DNA from: Candidatus Omnitrophota bacterium
GTDB taxonomy: Bacteria > Omnitrophota > Gorgyraeia > Gorgyraeales > Gorgyraeaceae
Reading direction: 5' to 3'
Length of the DNA stretch: 37,486 nt
Assembly: GCA_018824725.1 (NCBI GenBank)
Contig: JAHJGB010000126.1
Span: forward strand, 1-37,486
The position numbers and the translations under genes are program-made. Shown here piece after piece: positions 3,412-37,258 of the stretch (positions are counted from its first letter, which is position 1; the number at the start of each line of letters is the position of its first letter). The notes under the pieces were generated by a model. It did not search any database. It was not told the origin of the DNA and saw only the letters and a list, made by a program, of their open reading frames with translations.

Positions 3412-4163
3412 TAATTGAATACGACGGCTCTGGGTTTAACGGCTGGCAGGCGCAAGAGCGCACAAGGGCACAAGGGCACAAGGGCACAAGTAAAAGATTA
3501 AAAACCGTGCAAGGGGAAATAGAAAAGGCTGCAAAAAAGCTTTTTGGTAAATATATCTCTCTTATAGGCTCATCCAGGACAGATGCAGGCGTTCACGCAA
3601 AAGCCCAGGCTGCAAATTTCAGGATAGATTCAAACTTCCCGCTAAATAAAATCAAAAATGGCCTAAACAGTTTTTTAACGCGCCGGATTTCAATAATCTC
3701 CGCGGAAGAGGTTTCTCTGAGATTTCATTCCAGGTTTGATTCCAAAGGAAAATTATATAAATATACGATACTTAACAGAAGGACTCGGTCGCCGCTCCTT
3801 GAAAAATATGCCGTATTCGTGCCGTATGACCTGGATATAATTGCGATGAAGAAGGCAGCCGGTTATCTGATCGGAAAGAAAGATTTTAAATCGTTTCAAA
3901 CCAGCGATAAAAAAGAAAAAGACTCTGTGAGGGTCATTAAAAAGATAGAAATAATTTCAAGGCCGCCTGTGGTAGAGATATGTATTCAGGCAAACGGATT
4001 TTTATATAATATGGCCAGGGCAATAGCAGGCACCCTGATCGAAGTCGGAAGAGGCAGATTTAAGCCTGAAAAAGTAAAAGAAATCCTGAAAGAAAAACAC
4101 AGGCCTTCGGCAGGCCAGACTGCGCCTGCAAAAGGTTTGTGCCTTGAAGAGGTATTTTATTGA
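3393..4163 (+). CDS. truA: tRNA pseudouridine synthase A
   Basis: IEYDGSGFNGWQAQ, SSRTDAGVHAKAQAANF, NGFLYNMARAIAGTLIEVGRG. Contains an in-frame tandem-repeat insert at 3461-3490. Confidence 0.94.
   Translation: MRNIKLIIEYDGSGFNGWQAQERTRAQGHKGTSKRLKTVQGEIEKAAKKLFGKYISLIGSSRTDAGVHAKAQAANFRIDSNFPLNKIKNGLNSFLTRRISIISAEEVSLRFHSRFDSKGKLYKYTILNRRTRSPLLEKYAVFVPYDLDIIAMKKAAGYLIGKKDFKSFQTSDKKEKDSVRVIKKIEIISRPPVVEICIQANGFLYNMARAIAGTLIEVGRGRFKPEKVKEILKEKHRPSAGQTAPAKGLCLEEVFY
3461..3503 (+). repeat. In-frame coding insert in truA: (cacaaggg)x3 + cacaag, followed by taaaagatta
   Basis: 8-nt unit cacaaggg starts at 3461, 3469 and 3477, with a final partial unit at 3485. Flank taaaagatt is shared with the dapF insert. 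Confidence 0.85.
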
Positions 4164-4792
4164 TGGGGTATGAAGCTGCTTTAAAAAAAGCATGGGATGC
4201 AGTACAGGATGCCGGAGTAAAGCAGCAGTACCTTAAATTCCTGAACGATGAGTACGAAATAGATTATGCAGAGAAGAATATTATACATTCGTCCGCCATA
4301 AAAACCAATGGCGGGCTCAGTATTCCGCCCAAGGAACCCCGGGCTTCAGCCCGGGTGGGCTCCATTTCCATGTCATGCAATATCCCTGCCAAGGATTTTT
4401 ACAAACTACTGATGCTTCATTATATTGCAAACGAAAATAGGGTATTGAGGATAAGGCGCGATGAATGGATATCGTTCAAAGACCTGGACGGCGGAGAGGC
4501 ATATTTTTCGGCGTTTAAAAAAAGGGCAATAGACCCAATCCTGAGAAAATACGGAGATAATCCTAGCAATATATTTGAACGGGCCAGGTTTTTAAGCGCA
4601 GATAAAATAGATACAGGCACAGCCGGCGTATCGATAAATGCTTTTCCGAAAATAAAAGTAGCTGTTATTCTCTGGGCAAAGGATGATGAGTTTCCGGCAG
4701 ACTGCAATATGCTGTTTAATCCGGAGATAAAAGACATTTTTCCAACCGAAGATGTGGCGGTTCTCGGCGGGATAACAGCAGCCTTACTTTAA
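4160..4792 (+). CDS. DUF3786-like protein carrying a palindromic coding insert
   Basis: The ORF overlaps the truA stop (TGATG). C-terminal pattern WAKDDEFPADCNMLFNPEIKDIFPTEDVAVLGG and FYKLLMLHYI...EWISFKDLDGG...YFSAF resemble DUF3786 as I recall it; no search was run. Confidence 0.6.
   Translation: MMGYEAALKKAWDAVQDAGVKQQYLKFLNDEYEIDYAEKNIIHSSAIKTNGGLSIPPKEPRASARVGSISMSCNIPAKDFYKLLMLHYIANENRVLRIRRDEWISFKDLDGGEAYFSAFKKRAIDPILRKYGDNPSNIFERARFLSADKIDTGTAGVSINAFPKIKVAVILWAKDDEFPADCNMLFNPEIKDIFPTEDVAVLGGITAALL
4291..4367 (+). repeat. Element A copy 1 (two-hairpin palindromic element, in-frame in DUF3786-like gene)
   Basis: gtCCGCCAtaaaaaccaaTGGCGGgctcagtattccGCCCAaggaaCCCCGGGCttcaGCCCGGGTGGGCtccattt. 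About 77 nt; reverse complement matches the uvrA copy at 34897-34973. Confidence 0.85.
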
Positions 4793-4801
4793 CTAACCTA
4801 C

Positions 4802-16333: not shown

Positions 16334-17203
16334 ATGGAAAAAGCGATTAAAAAAGCTGATGTGTTGATAGAGGCATTACCGTATATAAAATCTTACAGCG
16401 GAAAGATTTTTGTAATAAAGTACGGCGGAAGCGCGCTTATAAACCCTGAGATTAAAAAAGGCGTGCTGCAGGATATTGTTTTTATGAGTTATGTAGGCAT
16501 AAGGCCTATACTGGTTCACGGCGGCGGGCCTTTTATAAACGAGGAATTCAGGAAGCTGGGCAAAAAGGTAGAATTTACAGAAGGCCTCAGGGTCACGACC
16601 AAAGAAGAGGCGCAGATAGTAGATAAAGTCCTTTCCAGGGTGAATGAAAATATAGTATCTGATATAAAGTCATTGGGCGGCAGGGCTGTCAGCATGAATA
16701 CTTTAAAGAAGAACGTGATAGTTGCAAGGCCACACAAAGAATCAGAGAGGCTTGGTTTTGTCGGAGAGATAGATAAGGTAAATAGCGATACAATAAGGAA
16801 TGCTGTCAGGCCCAGGGCAATACCTGTTATTTCTCCTGTAAGCATGGGAATAGATAAAGAGCTTTACAATATCAATGCAGATGATGCTGCTTCAGAGATA
16901 GCAATGGCTGTAAAGGCAGTCAAACTGGTGTTACTTACAGATGTAAAAGGCATAATGAGGCAGAAAGGCGACGAGAGTTCGCTTATTTCTACTCTTGCGA
17001 TGAAAGATGCGGATACGCTTATAGGCAGGAAGATTATCCAGGGCGGCATGATCCCAAAGGTAAGGGCATGTATGAATGCTTTGCGCTCAGGCGTATCAAA
17101 GACGCATATTATAGACGGAAGGATTCCGCATAGCTTATTGCTGGAAATTTTTACAGACAAGGGTATAGGGACGGAGATAATTAAAGGCAAAGGCCGAGAA
17201 TAG
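16334..17203 (+). CDS. argB: Acetylglutamate kinase (C-terminus encoded by a repeat element)
   Basis: FVIKYGGSALINPEIKKGVLQDIVFMSYVGIRPILVHGGGPFINE, LTDVKGIM, IQGGMIPKV; ends IIKGKGRE* inside element D. Confidence 0.96.
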   Translation: MEKAIKKADVLIEALPYIKSYSGKIFVIKYGGSALINPEIKKGVLQDIVFMSYVGIRPILVHGGGPFINEEFRKLGKKVEFTEGLRVTTKEEAQIVDKVLSRVNENIVSDIKSLGGRAVSMNTLKKNVIVARPHKESERLGFVGEIDKVNSDTIRNAVRPRAIPVISPVSMGIDKELYNINADDAASEIAMAVKAVKLVLLTDVKGIMRQKGDESSLISTLAMKDADTLIGRKIIQGGMIPKVRACMNALRSGVSKTHIIDGRIPHSLLLEIFTDKGIGTEIIKGKGRE

Positions 17204-17270
17204 GCAGGTTTCAACCTGCCTATTTATGAAGGCCTTTGCGACAATATTGTAGGGCACACTTTAGTGTGCC
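17186..17270. repeat. Element D copy 1 (nested hairpin + GTAGGG hairpin) at argB 3' end
   Basis: GCAAAGGCC...GGCCTTTGC outer arms (17187-17195/17231-17239), TAGGCAGGTT tc AACCTGCCTA inner arms, then GGCACACT tt AGTGTGCC. Confidence 0.9.
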
Positions 17271-23236: not shown

Positions 23237-24097
23237 ATGGTAAAAGTGAATTTTACAAAAATGGTTGGGGCTGGGAATGATTTTGCGGTAATTGACTCCG
23301 GACTCAAAGGCCTGAATGCGCTTGCAAAAAGATTGTGCGATAGAAAGACCGGAATCGGCGCTGACGGGATGCTTGTACTGGAGAAATCAAAGATAGCTGA
23401 TTTCAGGATGTGCATATTCAACGCAAACGGCAGCGAGGCAGAGATGTGCGGCAATGGATTGCGATGCGCAATATTATATGTAAAAACATATGGGCGCGTA
23501 AGCGCACAAGCGCATAAGGGCATAAGTAAAAGATTTAAGGTGGAAACAAAAGCCGGGTTATACGATGGCGAGATAACTGCCAAAGATAGGGTTAAAATAA
23601 AGATGGAAGAGCCCAGGGATTTAAAATTAGATTTTCCTATCAATGTGAACGGCAGAGAAATAAAAGCGAATTTTATAAATACAGGCGTGCCTCATACAGT
23701 AGTTTTTGTAGAAGGGCTGGATAAGATAAACGTGGATTCCATAGGTTCGCAGATAAGGTATCATGATGAATTTAAGCCAAAAGGGTCTAATGTAAATTTT
23801 GTAGAGACAATAGATAACAGCAATATAAAGATACGTACTTATGAGAGAGGTGTGGAGGGAGAGACCCTTGCGTGCGGAACAGGGTCTGTGGCGTCGGCAA
23901 TAATTAGCAGGGTAAAAGGTGAAGCTCCGAACCACTTACTTCGTTCGGGTACGGGGCATGGGTTAAGGGTAAAGGTAAATGTGCATACAAAAGGCGGGGT
24001 TCTAAAAGTGGAATTTGATAATATAAAGAATAAAATTAAGAATGTTTATCTGGAAGGCGAAGCTAAAATCGTATTCCAAGGGGGTATTTATGTTTGA
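23237..24097 (+). CDS. dapF: Diaminopimelate epimerase (with two apparent insertions)
   Basis: FTKMVGAGNDFAVID, NANGSEAEMCGNGLRCA, NTGVPHTVVFVE, ERGVEGETLACGTGSVASA. Confidence 0.95.
   Translation: MVKVNFTKMVGAGNDFAVIDSGLKGLNALAKRLCDRKTGIGADGMLVLEKSKIADFRMCIFNANGSEAEMCGNGLRCAILYVKTYGRVSAQAHKGISKRFKVETKAGLYDGEITAKDRVKIKMEEPRDLKLDFPINVNGREIKANFINTGVPHTVVFVEGLDKINVDSIGSQIRYHDEFKPKGSNVNFVETIDNSNIKIRTYERGVEGETLACGTGSVASAIISRVKGEAPNHLLRSGTGHGLRVKVNVHTKGGVLKVEFDNIKNKIKNVYLEGEAKIVFQGGIYV
23502..23536 (+). repeat. In-frame coding insert in dapF: gcgcacaagcgcataagggcataag-taaaagattt
   Basis: Nearly matches the truA insert: AQAHKGISKRFK (dapF) versus AQGHKGTSKRLK (truA). Confidence 0.8.
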
Positions 24098-25051: not shown

Positions 25052-25795
25052 ATGGTGAGGATTATTATAAGCGGGATATCGGGCAGGATGGGGGCCAGGA
25101 TCGGGGCGCTTGCCAGCCAGGATAAAAATTTTGAAATAGCAGGAGCTGTTGAGGCTTCTTCCAGTCCGGCGGTGGGGAAAGACATAGGAGAGATCATTTC
25201 TGCCGGGAAAATAGGCAAAAAGGTGGAATCTGATTTTAATAAAATCGCTGGGACTTGCGATGTTTTGATAGAATTTACAGCGCCCCTAGCTACCTTGGAA
25301 CACCTGGAAACAGCGGTTAAGAATAAAAAAGCCATGGTCATAGGGACTACGGGATTTTCCAAAGACGAAGTAGAAAAGATTAAAGATGCTTCCAAAAAAA
25401 TGCCAGTTGTTTTTTCTCCGAATATGAGCGTAGGCGCTAATCTGATGTTTAAAATCACAGAAGAAGTTGCCAGGGCTCTGGGAGAGGATTACGAGATAGA
25501 GATAGTGGAAGCCCATCATAATCAGAAAAAAGATGCTCCGAGCGGGACAGCTAAACGGTTGGGTGAGGCTGTTTCTAAAGCAAAAGGCAAAACGCCTCCC
25601 ATTCATTCTATAAGGCTGGGAGATATAGTAGGAGACCATACTGTTATATTCGCAGGCAAGGCAGAAAGAATAGAATTGACGCACAGGGCTCATTCCAGGG
25701 ATGCGTTTGCAAAAGGCTCGCTGGATGCGGCAAAGTTTTTAGCAGGCAAAAAGCCCGGGCTTTATACTATGGCAGATGTTATAGAGATAAAGTAA
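25052..25795 (+). CDS. dapB: 4-hydroxy-tetrahydrodipicolinate reductase
   Basis: RIIISGISGRMGARIGALAS, GTTGFSKDEVEKI, PNMSVGANLMFKI, EAHHNQKKDAPSGTAKRLGE. Confidence 0.96.
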   Translation: MVRIIISGISGRMGARIGALASQDKNFEIAGAVEASSSPAVGKDIGEIISAGKIGKKVESDFNKIAGTCDVLIEFTAPLATLEHLETAVKNKKAMVIGTTGFSKDEVEKIKDASKKMPVVFSPNMSVGANLMFKITEEVARALGEDYEIEIVEAHHNQKKDAPSGTAKRLGEAVSKAKGKTPPIHSIRLGDIVGDHTVIFAGKAERIELTHRAHSRDAFAKGSLDAAKFLAGKKPGLYTMADVIEIK

Positions 25796-25917
25796 AAAGT
25801 CAAAAGTAAAAAGGTAAAACCAAAACTCAAAAGTTAAAATTAAAGAATAGAAAGCCAGCAAAGAGAATAAAATTTTTAATTGTGGTTTTGACTTTTTCAT
25901 TTTTACTTTTGAGTTAA
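25794..25917. repeat. AT-rich MITE-like element E copy 1 (upstream of dapL)
   Basis: Left end aaagtcaaaagtaaaaaggtaaaaccaaaactcaaaagttaaaatta; right end aatttttaattgtggttttgactttttcatttttacttttgagtt, roughly its inverted complement; repeated at 27114-27232. Confidence 0.82.
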
Positions 25918-27100: not shown

Positions 27101-27113
27101 CAAAAGCTTTAAG

Positions 27114-27232
27114 GTAAAAGTCAAAAGTAAAAAGGTAAAACCAAAACTTAAAAGTTAAAATTAAAAAAACAGGCATTGAAAATTTTGAATTTTTAATTGC
27201 GGTTTTGACTTTTTCGTTTTTACTTTTGAGTT
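27114..27232. repeat. AT-rich MITE-like element E copy 2 (downstream of dapL)
   Basis: Same ends as copy 1 in direct orientation; only the central 20-30 nt differ clearly. Confidence 0.82.
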
Positions 27233-27246
27233 ATAAAATATTGTTT

Positions 27247-27651: not shown

Positions 27652-28504
27652 AAGCGTAAGATCTTTGGCAAAAAAAGTTTCTGAAATAAAGAAGCGCAAT
27701 AAGACAATAGGCCTTGTGCCCACTATGGGGTTTTTGCACGAAGGCCATGCAAGCCTCGTAAGAAAAGCTAAAAAGGACACAGATTGTGTTATTGTCAGTA
27801 TTTTTGTAAATCCAGCCCAGTTCGGGCCCAAGGAAGATTTTAAAAAATACCCAAGAGACCTGAAAAGAGATCTGGATATCTGCAAAAAAGAAGACGCTGA
27901 TATAATTTTTGTCCCGGAAGCTAAAGATATGTATCCGGACGATTATTCTACCCATGTAAGCGTGGAAGGAATTACTGAAAAATTATGCGGGGCCTCCAGG
28001 CCAGGCCATTTTCGCGGAGTAACCACAGTGGTTACAAAACTTTTTAATATCGCAATGCCTGATATTGCATATTTCGGACAAAAAGACGCCCAGCAGGCAA
28101 TCGTGATCAAAAAAATGGCAGAAGACCTTAATATGGATGTGGATATAAAGGTAATGCCTATTGTCCGGGAAAAAGACGGATTGGCCATGAGCTCAAGAAA
28201 TGTTTATCTTAGTAGCTCAGAGCGGGTTCAGGCCGCCTCGCTTTATAAGGCTTTAAGGCTTGCAAAAAGATTATTTGATCAGGGAGAAAAAAATTCCGGA
28301 AAGATAATCAGCAAAATGAAAGAGGTTATAGGTAAAGAACCCGACGCTAAAATAGATTATATATTTATAGTTGACATAAAGGAACTGAAGGCTATTAAAA
28401 AAATTTCCGGCATGGCATTGGCTGCAGTAGCTGCGCGGGTCGGAAATACGAGATTGATAGATAATATAATATTAAGGCAAAGGCCGAGAATAGGCAGGTT
28501 TTAA
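27638..28504 (+). CDS. panC: Pantothenate synthetase (C-terminus encoded by a repeat element)
   Basis: GLVPTMGFLHEGHASLVRKA, VSIFVNPAQFGPKEDFKKYPRDL, FRGVTTVVTKLFNI, FGQKDAQQ, MSSRNVYLSSSER; ends RQRPRIGRF* inside element D. Confidence 0.95.
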   Translation: MQVYRSVRSLAKKVSEIKKRNKTIGLVPTMGFLHEGHASLVRKAKKDTDCVIVSIFVNPAQFGPKEDFKKYPRDLKRDLDICKKEDADIIFVPEAKDMYPDDYSTHVSVEGITEKLCGASRPGHFRGVTTVVTKLFNIAMPDIAYFGQKDAQQAIVIKKMAEDLNMDVDIKVMPIVREKDGLAMSSRNVYLSSSERVQAASLYKALRLAKRLFDQGEKNSGKIISKMKEVIGKEPDAKIDYIFIVDIKELKAIKKISGMALAAVAARVGNTRLIDNIILRQRPRIGRF

Positions 28505-28562
28505 CCTGCCTATTTATGAAGGCCCTTGCGGCAGCTTTGTGTAGGGCAGGCTTTAGCCTGCC
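28476..28562. repeat. Element D copy 2 at panC 3' end
   Basis: ggcaaaggccgagaataggcaggttttaacctgcctatttatgaaggcccttgcggca is near-identical to 17186-17243; followed by GGCAGGCT tt AGCCTGCC. Confidence 0.9.
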
Positions 28563-28967: not shown

Positions 28968-29951
28968 ATGACACCTCATCCTTATAAGAAAGAAGACGAT
29001 CTGAAGTATAAAGAAAATCTTAAGAAAAAGATCCTGAAGCTTAAGAAAGAAAAGCACGCTGTAATAATAGTGCACAATTATCAGCGCGACGAAGTTCAGG
29101 ATATAGCGGATATAAGCGGTGATTCTCTGGCGCTCAGCCAGGCTGCGGTCAAAGCGGACGCAAAGGTTATTGTTTTCTGCGGCGTGGATTTTATGGCAGA
29201 AAGCGCATCCATACTGAATCCTGACAAGATAGTGCTCCTGCCCGTGAAAGAGGCGGGTTGCCCTATGGCAGATATGGTCACTGTTGAGCGGTTAAGAGAA
29301 AAAAGAAATGAATATCCTGACGCTGCAGTTGTATGCTATGTCAATTCTTCCGCTCAAATAAAGGCTGAGAGCGACATATGCTGCACGTCTTCAAATGCCA
29401 TCCAGATAGTCCAATCCCTTAAAGACTACAAAGAAGTTATATTCGTGCCTGATAAAAACCTGGGAAGATATGTCCAGCAAAATGTGCCGGATAAAAAGAT
29501 AATCCTGTGGGAAGGATTCTGCCCTACGCATATAAGGGTTTCAAAAGAAGAGATTTTTAAGGCCAAGGCAGATCATCCTGAAGCAGAAGTGGTGGCGCAT
29601 CCGGAATGTAATCCTGACGTATTGAGCGTAAGCGATCACATATGCTCTACCGGCGGGATGTTTAAGTATGTCAATGCCTCTAAATCAAAAGAGTTTATTA
29701 TAGCCACTGAGTCAGGCATGCTTTACAGATTGAAAAAAGACAATCCGGAGAAGATTTTCTACATGTCCACAGACAGATTGGTATGCCCCACAATGAAATT
29801 GACCACACTTGGATGGGTTGCTCATTCTCTTGAGGCAATGGAACACGAGATCAGGATAAGCGGCGATATAAGGGATAAGGCTTATAAAGCCCTGGAACGC
29901 ATGTTAAATGTTTCCGGAGAAAAACCAGGGGCCAGCCTGGCCGGGTATTAG
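28968..29951 (+). CDS. nadA: Quinolinate synthase
   Basis: IIVHNYQRDEVQDIADISGDSLALSQAA, CGVDFMAESASILNPDKIVLLP, AGCPMADM, CYVNSSAQIKAESDICCTSSNA, HPECNPDV, ATESGMLYRLK. Confidence 0.95.
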   Translation: MTPHPYKKEDDLKYKENLKKKILKLKKEKHAVIIVHNYQRDEVQDIADISGDSLALSQAAVKADAKVIVFCGVDFMAESASILNPDKIVLLPVKEAGCPMADMVTVERLREKRNEYPDAAVVCYVNSSAQIKAESDICCTSSNAIQIVQSLKDYKEVIFVPDKNLGRYVQQNVPDKKIILWEGFCPTHIRVSKEEIFKAKADHPEAEVVAHPECNPDVLSVSDHICSTGGMFKYVNASKSKEFIIATESGMLYRLKKDNPEKIFYMSTDRLVCPTMKLTTLGWVAHSLEAMEHEIRISGDIRDKAYKALERMLNVSGEKPGASLAGY

Positions 29952-29956
29952 TTACT

Positions 29957-29993
29957 ATGGGAGTCCGACTCCCATAGGGAGTCGGACTCCCAT
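29957..29993. repeat. Palindrome family C copy 5, overlapping nadX start
   Basis: ATGGGAGTCCGACTCCC ata GGGAGTCGGACTCCCAT, perfect 17-bp arms. Confidence 0.9.
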
Positions 29994-30792
29994 GAGTTAT
30001 ATGAAACTTAAAAAAATAGGCATAATAGGCTGCGGGGCAATGGGTTCCGAGATAGCGGATTACATATCCAGGAATCTAGGCGATAAATTAAAGATAATAG
30101 CTGTCGCTGATATTGATTTCAGGAAAGCAGAAGGGCTTTCCAACAGAATAAAGCCGAAGCCGTTGATAGCATCTATAGAAGAGATAATTAATAAATCCGA
30201 TATTATAATAGAAGCGGCATCCGGGGAGATCTCTGGAGATATAGCTGAAAAGGCAAATGCTTTAAAAAAAGACGCGCTTATTATGAGCACAGGCGGACTT
30301 TTAAGGAAACCGCAGCTTATTGAAAAAATAAATTCAGGCCATTCGAGCATACATATCCCTAGCGGCGCCATATGCGGGCTGGATGGATTAAAATCAGCAA
30401 TGACAGGCGCAGTTAAAAGTGTGACCCTTACTACCAGGAAGCCATTGAAAGGCCTTGCAGGCTCTCCGCATTTAAAAGAAAAAAATATCAATATAGAAAA
30501 AATAGATAAAGAGACTCTGATATATTCCGGCACAGCCAGGGATGCGATAAAATATTTTCCTCAGAATATAAACGTGGCTGTTACATTGAGTATATGCGGA
30601 ATCGGAGCAGACAAAACAAACGTAAAGATATTCACTTCCCCTGATTACACAAAAAATACCCATGAGATAGAAATAGAAGGCGAGTTTGGAAGGTTATGGA
30701 CAAAGACAGAAAATCTGCCTTCCAAAAATAATCCTAAGACCAGTCAATTGGCAATTTTTTCAGCGATCGCCAAGCTTAAAGAAATAATTTGA
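29992..30792 (+). CDS. nadX: L-aspartate dehydrogenase
   Basis: KLKKIGIIGCGAMGSEIADYI, IIIEAASGE, STGGLLR, IPSGAICGLDGLKSA, NINVAVTLSICGIGADKT. Start 29992 or 30001. Confidence 0.87.
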   Translation: MSYMKLKKIGIIGCGAMGSEIADYISRNLGDKLKIIAVADIDFRKAEGLSNRIKPKPLIASIEEIINKSDIIIEAASGEISGDIAEKANALKKDALIMSTGGLLRKPQLIEKINSGHSSIHIPSGAICGLDGLKSAMTGAVKSVTLTTRKPLKGLAGSPHLKEKNINIEKIDKETLIYSGTARDAIKYFPQNINVAVTLSICGIGADKTNVKIFTSPDYTKNTHEIEIEGEFGRLWTKTENLPSKNNPKTSQLAIFSAIAKLKEII

Positions 30793-34269: not shown

Positions 34270-34312
34270 ACTATCGAAGCCCGACTCCCTATGGGAGTCG
34301 GGCTTCGATAGT
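34270..34312. repeat. Palindrome family C copy 6
   Basis: ACTATCGAAGCCCGACTCCC tat GGGAGTCGGGCTTCGATAGT, perfect 20-bp arms. Confidence 0.92.
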
Positions 34313-34324
34313 AAAGAGATATCT

Positions 34325-37258
34325 ATGGAAGATAAGTTTATAAAAATATTTGGGGCGAAAGAGCATAATCTTAAGAATATAAATCTCGAGATTCCCAGTA
34401 ACAAGCTGGTGGTGATTACAGGGCTTAGCGGCTCAGGAAAATCCTCCCTTGCGTTTGATACGATATACGCAGAAGGCCAGCGCAGATATGTAGAGAGCCT
34501 GTCTAGCTACGCGAGACAGTTCCTGGAACAGCTTGAAAAGCCTGACGTGGAACGCATAGAAGGCCTGTCCCCAGCTATTTCTATTGAACAGAGAAAGGCA
34601 GGCGGGAACCCGCGCTCTACAGTAGGTACCACTACAGAGATATATGATTATCTAAGGCTTCTCTTCGCCCGCATAGGAAAGCCTTATTGCTACAAATGCG
34701 GGCGGGAAATAAAACAGCAAAGCCAGGATGAAATAGTAGACAGGATTTTAAAATATCCGGACGGGACAGCTGTTATTATACTTGCTCCTATTGTGAGGGG
34801 CAGGAAAGGCGAGTACCACAGCCTTTTCAGCGAATTAAAAAAACAAGGATTTGTGAGAATAAAGTTAGACGGCAGCATGGTTTCTCTGGATGAGAAAATG
34901 GAGCCCACTTTGGCTAAAGCCCGGGGTTCCTGTGGGCGGAATACTAAGCCCGCCATTGTTTCTGTGGCGGGCGAATGTATAAAATTGGATAAATTTAAGA
35001 AGCATGATATAGAGGTCGTGGTAGACAGGATTGTGATTGAAAAAGGAATAAGAGAAAGGCTCGCGGATTCTGTAGAAACAGCTTTAAAGGTGGGCAAGGG
35101 GCTGTTGTTGGTTAATAAAGCTGATAAGGAAGATGAACTTTTCAGCGAATTATACTCGTGCCCTGAATGTGGGGTGAATTATGAAGAAATAGAACCCAGG
35201 ATGTTTTCCTTTAACAGCCCTTATGGCGCCTGCAGTTCATGCGATGGCCTGGGCACTATAATGGATATAGATCCGGATCTCGTCATACCTGATAAAACAA
35301 AATCTTTAAGAGAGGCAATAAGGCCATGGCGGGTAGGCGGAATGAGAATAGTGCTTCACTACAGAAGGCTTTTAAGAAAGCTTGGGCAGGAATACGGTTT
35401 TGGTATAGATACTCCCTTTGATAAAATCCCTAAAAAAATAAGAGATGTTATCTTATATGGTTCAAAAAGAGCAGAATGGGGTGTTTATACATTCGCCCCG
35501 ATAAAATCGGGGCTCAGTATTCCGCCTACAGGAACCCTGGGTGGGCTCCATTTTGAGGGGGTTGTACCTAATCTATTGAGGAGATTAAAAGACACAGACA
35601 GCGAATTCATGAGAGCTGAAATAAATAAATACACAACTATCTCTACTTGCCTTGAATGTAAAGGCAAGAGATTAAAGCCTGAAGCGCTTTCAATAAAGAT
35701 AAATGACATATCCATCAGCGATATTTCTGGTTTTTCAATCAGAGACGCAAAAAAATTCTTTTTGGATATAAAACTCACCCAAACGCAGGAGACAATTGCC
35801 CGCCAGATTTTAAAAGAAATACGCGAGAGGCTTAGTTTTATGACTAATGTCGGACTTGATTATCTTACGCTTGATAGAATCAGTTCCACTCTTTCCGGAG
35901 GAGAGGCGCAAAGGATAAGGCTGGCAACTCAGATAGGGGCGGGACTAGTAGGTGTTCTTTATGTGCTGGACGAGCCAAGCATAGGCCTTCATCAAAAAGA
36001 TAATGCAAAACTTCTTGATACGCTGAAGGCATTGAGAGATTTAGGAAACACGCTGATAGTTGTTGAGCACGATGAAGCTACGATAAGGAATGCGGATTAT
36101 ATTATAGATCTTGGCCCTGGCGCAGGCAAACACGGCGGATATGTGGTAGCAAAAGGTTCTATTGACGACATTATAAATTCAAAAGAATCTCTGACAGGCA
36201 GTTATATGCGCGGAGAATTAAAGATAGATGCGCCTGAGAAAAGGCGCAAGGCAATAAAAAACAGGTCTATTGTGATCAGGAACGCAAGAGAGCATAATCT
36301 TAAAAATATAGACGTCCAGATACCGCTTGGCCTTTTTGTGTGCATAACAGGGGTGTCCGGTTCAGGCAAAAGTACGATGGTGGATGATATTTTATATAAA
36401 GCTCTGGCGAAAAAACTTTACGGGTCTAAGGAAAAACCCGGAGCGCATGATGAGATTGAAGGCGTGGATCAGGTGGATAAGGTTATTGTTGTTGACCAAT
36501 CGCCCATAGGCAGGACCCCGCGTTCAAACCCGGTCACGTATACAGGAGTATTTTCTTTTATAAGGGATATATTCGCAAAACTTCCTGAATCCAGGATGAG
36601 GGGGTATAAACCCGGCCGGTTCAGTTTCAATGTTAAAGGCGGCAGATGCGAGGCGTGCCAGGGAGATGGCATCAAGCAGATAGAAATGCATTTCCTGCCT
36701 GATGTTTATGTGACTTGCGAAGTTTGTGACGGCAGGCGGTATAATCACGAGACCCTGCAGGTTCTTTATAAAGGAAAATCAATTGCCGATGTCCTGGAAA
36801 TGACAGTTGAAGACGGGATGGAACTTTTTAAAAATATCCCGCATATTCATCAGAAGCTTAAAACGCTTTGCGAGGTAGGGCTTGGGTATATTGAGTTAGG
36901 GCAATCTGCGACAACGCTTTCAGGAGGAGAAGCGCAAAGGATAAAACTTGCCGCAGAGCTGAGCAAGATAGGGACAGGTAAAACCCTTTATATACTGGAT
37001 GAGCCTACCACAGGCCTGCATTTTGCAGACATAGACAGGCTGCTCAAGGTATTGCATGCTCTAGTAGAGGGAGGGAACAGCGTTTTGATAATAGAACATA
37101 ATCTGGATGTCATAAAATCAGCAGATTATGTCATAGACCTGGGGCCTGGAGGAGGAGATGAAGGCGGAAATATAGTAACCTGCGGCACACCTGAAGAAAT
37201 AGCCAAAGCTTCATCTTCATATACCGGACAATACTTGAAAACATACCTAAAGCCATAA
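34325..37258 (+). CDS. uvrA: Excinuclease ABC subunit A (with two palindromic coding inserts)
   Basis: [104 protein letters not shown]. Confidence 0.98.
34897..34973 (-). repeat. Element A copy 2 (reverse orientation, in-frame in uvrA)
   Basis: aatggagcccactttggctaaagcccggggttcctgtgggcggaatactaagcccgccattgtttctgtggcgggc; GCCCGCCA (34948-34955)/TGGCGGGC (34965-34972). By-eye match of roughly 85-90% to the reverse complement of 4291-4367. Confidence 0.85.
35495..35554 (+). repeat. Element A copy 3 (forward, diverged/shortened, in-frame in uvrA)
   Basis: gCCCCGATaaaATCGGGGctcagtattccgcctacaggaaccctgggtgggctccatttt; shares ggctcagtattccgcc and gggtgggctccattt with copy 1. Confidence 0.8.

Follow-up and report, generated by a model that had tools for sequence, protein, structure and literature searches.

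The uvrA locus and its insertions

The window analysed here, the whole stretch of 37,486 nucleotides from a Candidatus Omnitrophota bacterium, carries a uvrA gene whose product displays the Pfam domains UvrA_inter, UvrA_DNA-bind and ABC_tran, and which is interrupted by two copies of a short palindromic repeat, so-called element A (Table 1). A further copy occupies a gene of the DUF3786 family; the three copies of the window all lie within genes and are all in frame.

Table 1. Features of uvrA and of the element copies, numbered from the first letter of the window; a caret marks an insertion point here and in the text.
Feature	Position	Strand	Description	Basis
uvrA	34325-37258	+	977-aa ORF, hosts two element copies	PDB UvrA matches at E = 0
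Element copy 2	34900-34980	+, uvrA orientation	81 nt	Empty sites in same-genus uvrA; frame table
Target flank of copy 2	34895-34899	+	AAAAT, insertion after T	28 filled/empty comparisons
Hairpin 1 of copy 2	34903-34937	+	Outer stem GCCCAC/GTGGGC, inner hairpin within	DNA fold, z = -2.95
Linker of copy 2	34941-34948	+	ATACTAAG; family consensus ATACTGAG	Sequence and family alignment
Hairpin 2 of copy 2	34948-34972	+	GCCCGCCA...TGGCGGGC	Folds; stem test on 59 distinct hp2 sequences
3' tail of copy 2	34973-34980	+	GAATGTAT, element end	Family alignment; RNA fold of consensus copies
Element copy 3	35487-35549	-, opposite to uvrA	63 nt, 21 aa, about residues 388-408	Open in host frame
Element copy 1	4283-4363	-, opposite to host gene	81 nt	Empty sites in six same-genus loci (e.g. 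L136, L128)
Host of copy 1	4160-4792		ORF, DUF3786 gene	Pfam PF12654

Copy 2 contributes 27 extra codons to uvrA (about residues 192-218), preceded by SLDEK and followed by IKLDKFKKH, and the reading frame of the gene runs through it without interruption. A phmmer search against the PDB aligned residues 3-190 and 217-975 with the best UvrA structure, 9gxk from Clostridium thermocellum, and none of the residues between, and the segment is missing from the solved UvrA structures as well as from most UvrA orthologues of the same genus and the same family. The bounds of the copy derive from the comparison of filled and empty uvrA sites, the empty site of the genus reading GATGARAARAT^AAAATTGG and the filled site comprising (i) the left flank GATGAGAAAAT, (ii) the element, GGAGCC...GAATGTAT, and (iii) the right flank AAAATTGG. 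Copies 1 and 2 form inverted pairs at 4303-4343/34921-34961 (83% complementary) and 4332-4367/34896-34931 (89%), in agreement with the original prediction, which had recognized in uvrA a reversed counterpart of copy 1; the limits proposed there, 34897-34973, give way to 34900-34980. The same prediction held that copy 2 stays open and in frame despite its orientation opposite to copy 1 and that some 27 residues are extra in comparison with E. coli UvrA, and both statements are borne out, the alignment of orthologues that it had recommended disclosing a segment that is not a normal conserved part of the protein.

The uvrA gene of genome G009 contains copy 2 as well, has changes in common with it (CCCACTTTGGCTAAAG) and has lost 12 nt of it without loss of frame, and the same loop accommodates a different insert in G004, G005 and G008. 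The motif ...CGCCAGTCGGCATTTTT... of a separate repeat, element B (GCCGCAAAAGTCTTTGCGGCATCAAGCAAAAAATAACCGCCAGTCGGCATTTTTTGC), is found in frame in that loop of G005 (L075) and in the partial gene of G008 (L079); elsewhere, element A has been inserted into element B several times, at the same target (L022, L038, L144, L158). Copy 3, the second element of uvrA, is located 0.5 kb downstream of copy 2 and is missing from all UvrA orthologues aligned, its empty site reading TTCGAAAT^AAACACC on the element strand.

Architecture of the element

The consensus of the family is AAAT^hp1-ATACTGAG-hp2-CGAATGTAT^A, in which hairpin 1 (hp1) comprises an outer stem, GCCCAC/GTGGGC in element A, enclosing an inner hairpin. 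Consensus-like copies fold markedly better than their shuffled counterparts, with z-scores of -4.2 to -5.1 as RNA and -4.4 to -4.6 as DNA. The tail of copy 2 ends in GTAT, able to pair with the ATAC of its linker; across the family, where nearly all copies end in GTAT, this pairing is seen mainly as invariance, and one double change, ATCC/GGAT (L033), retains it.

The sequence of the hairpins is free to vary while their pairing is preserved. A set of 59 distinct hp2 sequences displays a mean end stem of 6.1 bp, compared with 0.76 in shuffles, and about 25 distinct stem ends, and hp1 sequences are sometimes unrelated to each other (CAATTTCTC..GAGAAATTG, CCAATTTTAGGC..GCCTAAAATTGG). The pattern TACTGAG-N12-42-CGAATGTA occurs 48 times in 12 genomes of the same genus and a stricter pattern in 15 of 285 sampled genomes of the phylum, representing 12 genera, again with unrelated hairpins; the reversed control of the former and the control of the latter returned no match. 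The hp2 module recurs in further families of the class. Species that share an insertion site can differ in hp2, as seen at three orthologous sites (L008/L047/L208; L027/L212/L175; L214/L216/L232/L070), so either the hairpins have been swapped in place or the site has been reused. From these observations a broader picture may be drawn, although we regard it as a tentative and rather doubtful one, of a class-wide type of element whose identity lies in a fold and in a pair of short feet (ATACTGAG-any hairpin-CGAATGTAT) and not in its sequence, with modules replaced in place, moved by an enzyme of some kind and adapted to translated genes in many frames. Two copies (L050 and L070, G008) contain an extra small insert (AAAGTCCTGAGC..GAAGGGC) within the element core.

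Genome-wide family, empty sites and target

The genome, a metagenome assembly of 1.66 Mb in 181 contigs, as are metagenome assemblies all the genomes compared with it, contains 41 matches to a 91-nt element query at E <= 1, so that the resemblance of copy 2 to copy 1 is not due to chance. Pattern searches add at least eleven further copies with other hairpins, for an approximate total of 50. Exact matches to the element core in GTDB genomes are confined to records titled Omnitrophica or Omnitrophota, and the core pattern has no match in viral contigs.

The joined flanks of 38 copies were searched against 12 genomes of the genus, and an orthologous empty site, with no gap at the insertion point, was found for 28 of them. 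Insertion takes place directly after (A)AAT: the empty sites show T at position -1 and A at position -2 in 27 of 28 cases each, and A at positions +1 to +3 in 21-24 of 28. Filled sites read AT^element...GT^AT, a configuration compatible with a 2-bp AT duplication or with none, the two being indistinguishable because the element's own end is AT. At position -6 the 28 filled sites show G 24 times and the 28 empty sites 13 times, the filled flank being shifted to GAAAAT; filled and empty sites differ at this position in 11 of 28 cases against a background of 11.3% (binomial p = 1.3e-4, for one position picked from several), and a few bases of the left flank may be carried in along with the element. 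In valS the codon at which the element is inserted is shared by G000, G002 and G005; all three copies are in frame, and that of G005 has a different hp2. Such orthologous insertions, common to independent assemblies, make an assembly artefact unlikely, and some of them may be old, with hairpins changed by gene conversion and not by new jumps. Taken as a whole, the copies constitute a mobile family with precise insertion and a target preference.

Other repeats of different kinds are dispersed in the window. A second short repeat (GCGCACAAGGGCACAAG...TAAAAGATTAAA), at 3442-3510 and 23494-23546, is in frame in truA and dapF, which display 11 extra residues compared with PDB 1vs3 and 7 compared with 8qzy, respectively; another family of coding inserts may therefore exist. 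The LeuC-like ORF at 26-682 includes a SHKPQATSHKLK stretch that looks like an inserted simple repeat. REP-like palindromes around GAAGCCCGACTCCC/GGGAGTCGGGCTTC are located directly upstream of uvrA (34270-34310), near 4795, 10515 and 24973, and at 29944-29999, where the palindrome overlaps an ORF start. A 67-nt repeat, 91% identical between 17184-17250 and 28474-28540, covers the 3' ends of two biosynthesis genes, the argB-like and panC-like ORFs, and paired A-rich/T-rich repeats (AAGTCAAAAGTAAAAAGG.. and TTTTGACTTTTTC..), 72-76% complementary at each place, lie between genes at 25776-25916 and 27111-27235.

Reading frame and translation

Nineteen copies are genic, that is, within reading frames and at least four codons from either end. 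In 15 of them the empty locus of a relative also has a spanning frame; the other four (L004, L016, L020, L029), which have no spanning empty locus, are genic by reading frame and Pfam, with L020 lacking a Pfam match. Their hosts, assigned by Pfam and NCBIfam, include (i) HolB, ValS, NAD synthase (NadE), TilS, MurF, MurB, QueE and UvrA, and (ii) an Elp3-like radical SAM protein and a SurA-like PPIase. Every one of the 19 genic copies spans a multiple of three nucleotides (63, 72, 75, 78, 81, 93, 102 or 126) and is free of stops when read in the frame of its host. Among the 19 remaining copies, ten have lengths that are multiples of three (Fisher p = 0.0011), and a non-genic copy placed in random phase and orientation has a mean probability of 0.15 of being in frame and open.

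Five of the six frames are used by genic copies. Among the 14 on the host strand, ten are read in frame MEPTRAKARGSLGG and four in NGAHPGSSPGFLGRN, the five on the reverse strand use all three reverse frames, and no genic copy is read in the remaining forward frame, in which the core gives TAC-TGA. In one subfamily the gain of one nucleotide at CCTGTGGG is offset by the loss of one in hp2, leaving the total of 81 unchanged. Five copies lie within the last 3-12 codons of genes and terminate them, and the copy at L031 closes both of the frames left open when its flanks are joined. Since genic copies are in frame and stop-free, and about half of the others are not divisible by three, the conservation of frame argues that the insert would be translated into the mature protein, without splicing or bypass.

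Genic copies have 2.42 open frames each, compared with 1.74 in dinucleotide shuffles (a value reached by none of 200), and non-genic copies 1.84, compared with 1.48 (reached by 9 of 200); GC-rich hairpins are stop-poor in any case. The excess in genic copies is what selection on inserted copies would yield, and that in non-genic copies is slight, so most of the pattern can be put down to such filtering once a copy has landed. The openness of the element on both strands had been taken in the original prediction as a strong sign of selection for coding neutrality, a claim that has to be divided: selection clearly acts on the copies within genes, and the figures for non-genic copies hint, weakly, at an adaptation of the element itself.

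Predicted structure of UvrA

An AlphaFold model of UvrA, built from an alignment of 25 sequences (mean pLDDT 79.6), matches UvrA structures along its full length in Foldseek. The pLDDT falls below 50 in four segments only, comprising the two inserts (192-217 and 382-408) and two short stretches. Strands 184-187 and 226-237 flank the first insert, which is placed at the UvrB-interaction domain; the second is flanked by helices 370-378 and 413-423 and falls inside the DNA-binding domain match (316-435). Both are thus modelled as low-confidence loops, consistent with the expectation that copy 2 sits in a permissive loop of UvrA. The insert loops are probably disordered, although their low pLDDT may reflect, in part, missing homologues rather than real disorder, and we infer that they are near-neutral for their hosts.

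Mobility and alternative explanations

Element A probably represents mobile DNA of a short, non-autonomous type that is moved by an enzyme acting in trans and is kept in genes as a translated, tolerated loop. This enzyme would read the folded single-strand shape of the element, which would insert after the A-rich target (A)AAT^A; insertions that keep the frame of a gene would be translated and retained as an extra, probably disordered loop, gene-breaking insertions would be lost, and the element would thereby owe its survival in genes to being translated and tolerated. Recognition as a folded single strand, suggested by the conservation of pairing in hairpins of free sequence, and the class of the enzyme are speculative, with a Y1-type enzyme as a first guess because a hairpin is combined with a complementary guide/end pair and no clear duplication.

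The fate of the insert could be different. That it is removed from the RNA as a self-splicing intron, or bypassed by the ribosome, leaving a normal UvrA, would suit strong conserved hairpins in RNA and has a parallel in the hairpin bypass elements of yeast mitochondria (PMC6649704), but neither process would need the frame that all genic copies keep. Moreover, in genic copies on the host strand the base N of GCTNAA accords with the frame that is read, being A (or G) in the first frame and C or T in the second, and the use of five reading frames argues against a single coded signal for bypass or removal. Since Rfam gave no match for the element at gathering or permissive thresholds, and the genome has no reverse transcriptase domain, a group II or other self-splicing intron was rejected, and removal or bypass appears very unlikely. 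Scarcely more credible, and if anything less so, is a recruitment of the peptide to the benefit of UvrA or other hosts: the uvrA copy does persist in G000 and G009, and the same loop holds another insert in three relatives, but most orthologues are without the copy, the sequence decays with an in-frame deletion, and the same peptide, in different frames, turns up in hosts unrelated to each other.

As to the enzyme, one account would make the element a palindrome-associated MITE that belongs to an IS200/IS605 (Y1, HUH) transposon and leaves and enters DNA in single-stranded form, a plausible proposal to which we give well under an even chance. The two subterminal hairpins, the insertion 3' of a short target with no clear duplication, the right-end ATAC located 5' of a hairpin and complementary to the terminal GTAT, a complementarity that the double change ATCC/GGAT keeps, and the four Y1_Tnp (PF01797) genes of the genome all agree with it. 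No left-end guide was found, however, none of the four Y1 genes adjoins the element core or ends, so that none was recognized as a related autonomous copy with tnpA, and one has a palindrome of its own; PF01797 genes occur throughout the 12 genomes of the genus, even in G010, where element A has no match. Likewise, no transposase was found among the ORFs near right-end modules without a standard hp1 (L204, L223). A REP/RAYT origin was rejected, nearly all copies of the element ending in GTAT and not in a GTAG-tagged palindrome, and no Y1 locus carrying it, as was a classical MITE defined by terminal inverted repeats, the ends GGAGCC... and ...GAATGTAT not being inverted repeats. A folded recombination site for a tyrosine recombinase, comparable to integron attC, is an unlikely candidate: hp2 does have a foot that pairs (ATAC/GTAT), a spacer that stays unpaired (TGA/GAAT) and a stem whose sequence is free, and the left flank shifted to GAAAAT is what a carried-in overlap would produce, but the core of the foot is TAC/GTA and not the AAC/GTT of attC, there are no cassette genes, and the integron integrase model TIGR02249 stays below its cut-off in the genome. 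The two Xer recombinases were rejected as movers, since they resemble ordinary xerC/xerD and, located near elements, have nevertheless ordinary gene contexts.

Relation to known elements

Palindromic elements of this behaviour, the Rickettsia palindromic elements (RPEs), were reportedly described by Ogata et al. in 2000 and 2002. RPEs and their Wolbachia equivalents are short palindromic repeats of about 100-150 bp, in frame and translated in many unrelated core genes and with no known mobiliser, and for the RPE in guanylate kinase both translation and enzymatic activity have been shown (PMC2229807, PMC3767692, PMC10969869). The Omnitrophota element resembles them as a dispersed repeat with strong internal pairing, in frame and stop-free in unrelated conserved genes (19 of 19 genic copies), and the occurrence of different RPE groups at nearby sites of one gene compares with that of elements A and B in uvrA. 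The differences comprise (i) the phylum, (ii) the organization, with two side-by-side hairpins of free sequence on the fixed feet ATACTGAG and CGAATGTAT, whereas RPEs have terminal inverted repeats, and (iii) the exact empty sites and target consensus at hand for the Omnitrophota element. By kind, the element probably belongs with the protein-coding palindromic elements; it is likened to RPEs by behaviour, not by homology.

The palindrome-associated MITEs of IS200/IS605 (PATEs) and REP/RAYT systems share with the element structure-based ends, small size and the lack of a clear target duplication, and PATEs also share the subterminal hairpins and the insertion 3' of a short target. In contrast, the Omnitrophota element, for which neither a cognate Y1 gene nor a left guide has been located, often lies in genes, REPs being extragenic. 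The byps of Magnusiomyces mitochondria are likewise palindromes in essential genes; they are untranslated, whereas here the frame and the avoidance of stops are kept. ERIC, Correia and YPAL/RU-2 MITEs also combine small size with reading frames that are fused to genes (PMC2229807), but the majority bear terminal inverted repeats as well as target duplications and are mainly intergenic. A literature search, with most subscription journals outside its scope, found no report of palindromic elements in Omnitrophota.

So far, palindromic elements inserted in frame and translated have been regarded as peculiar to Rickettsia and Wolbachia. Here a different element, apparently of the same habit, is found in a free-living candidate phylum, and its clean empty sites disclose its target, its boundaries and the selection on frame. 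The comparison of many genomes within one genus offers a system for finding the mobiliser of such elements, and the element itself would represent a route for mobile DNA to add loops of 20-40 residues to core proteins such as UvrA, HolB, ValS, TilS and MurF.
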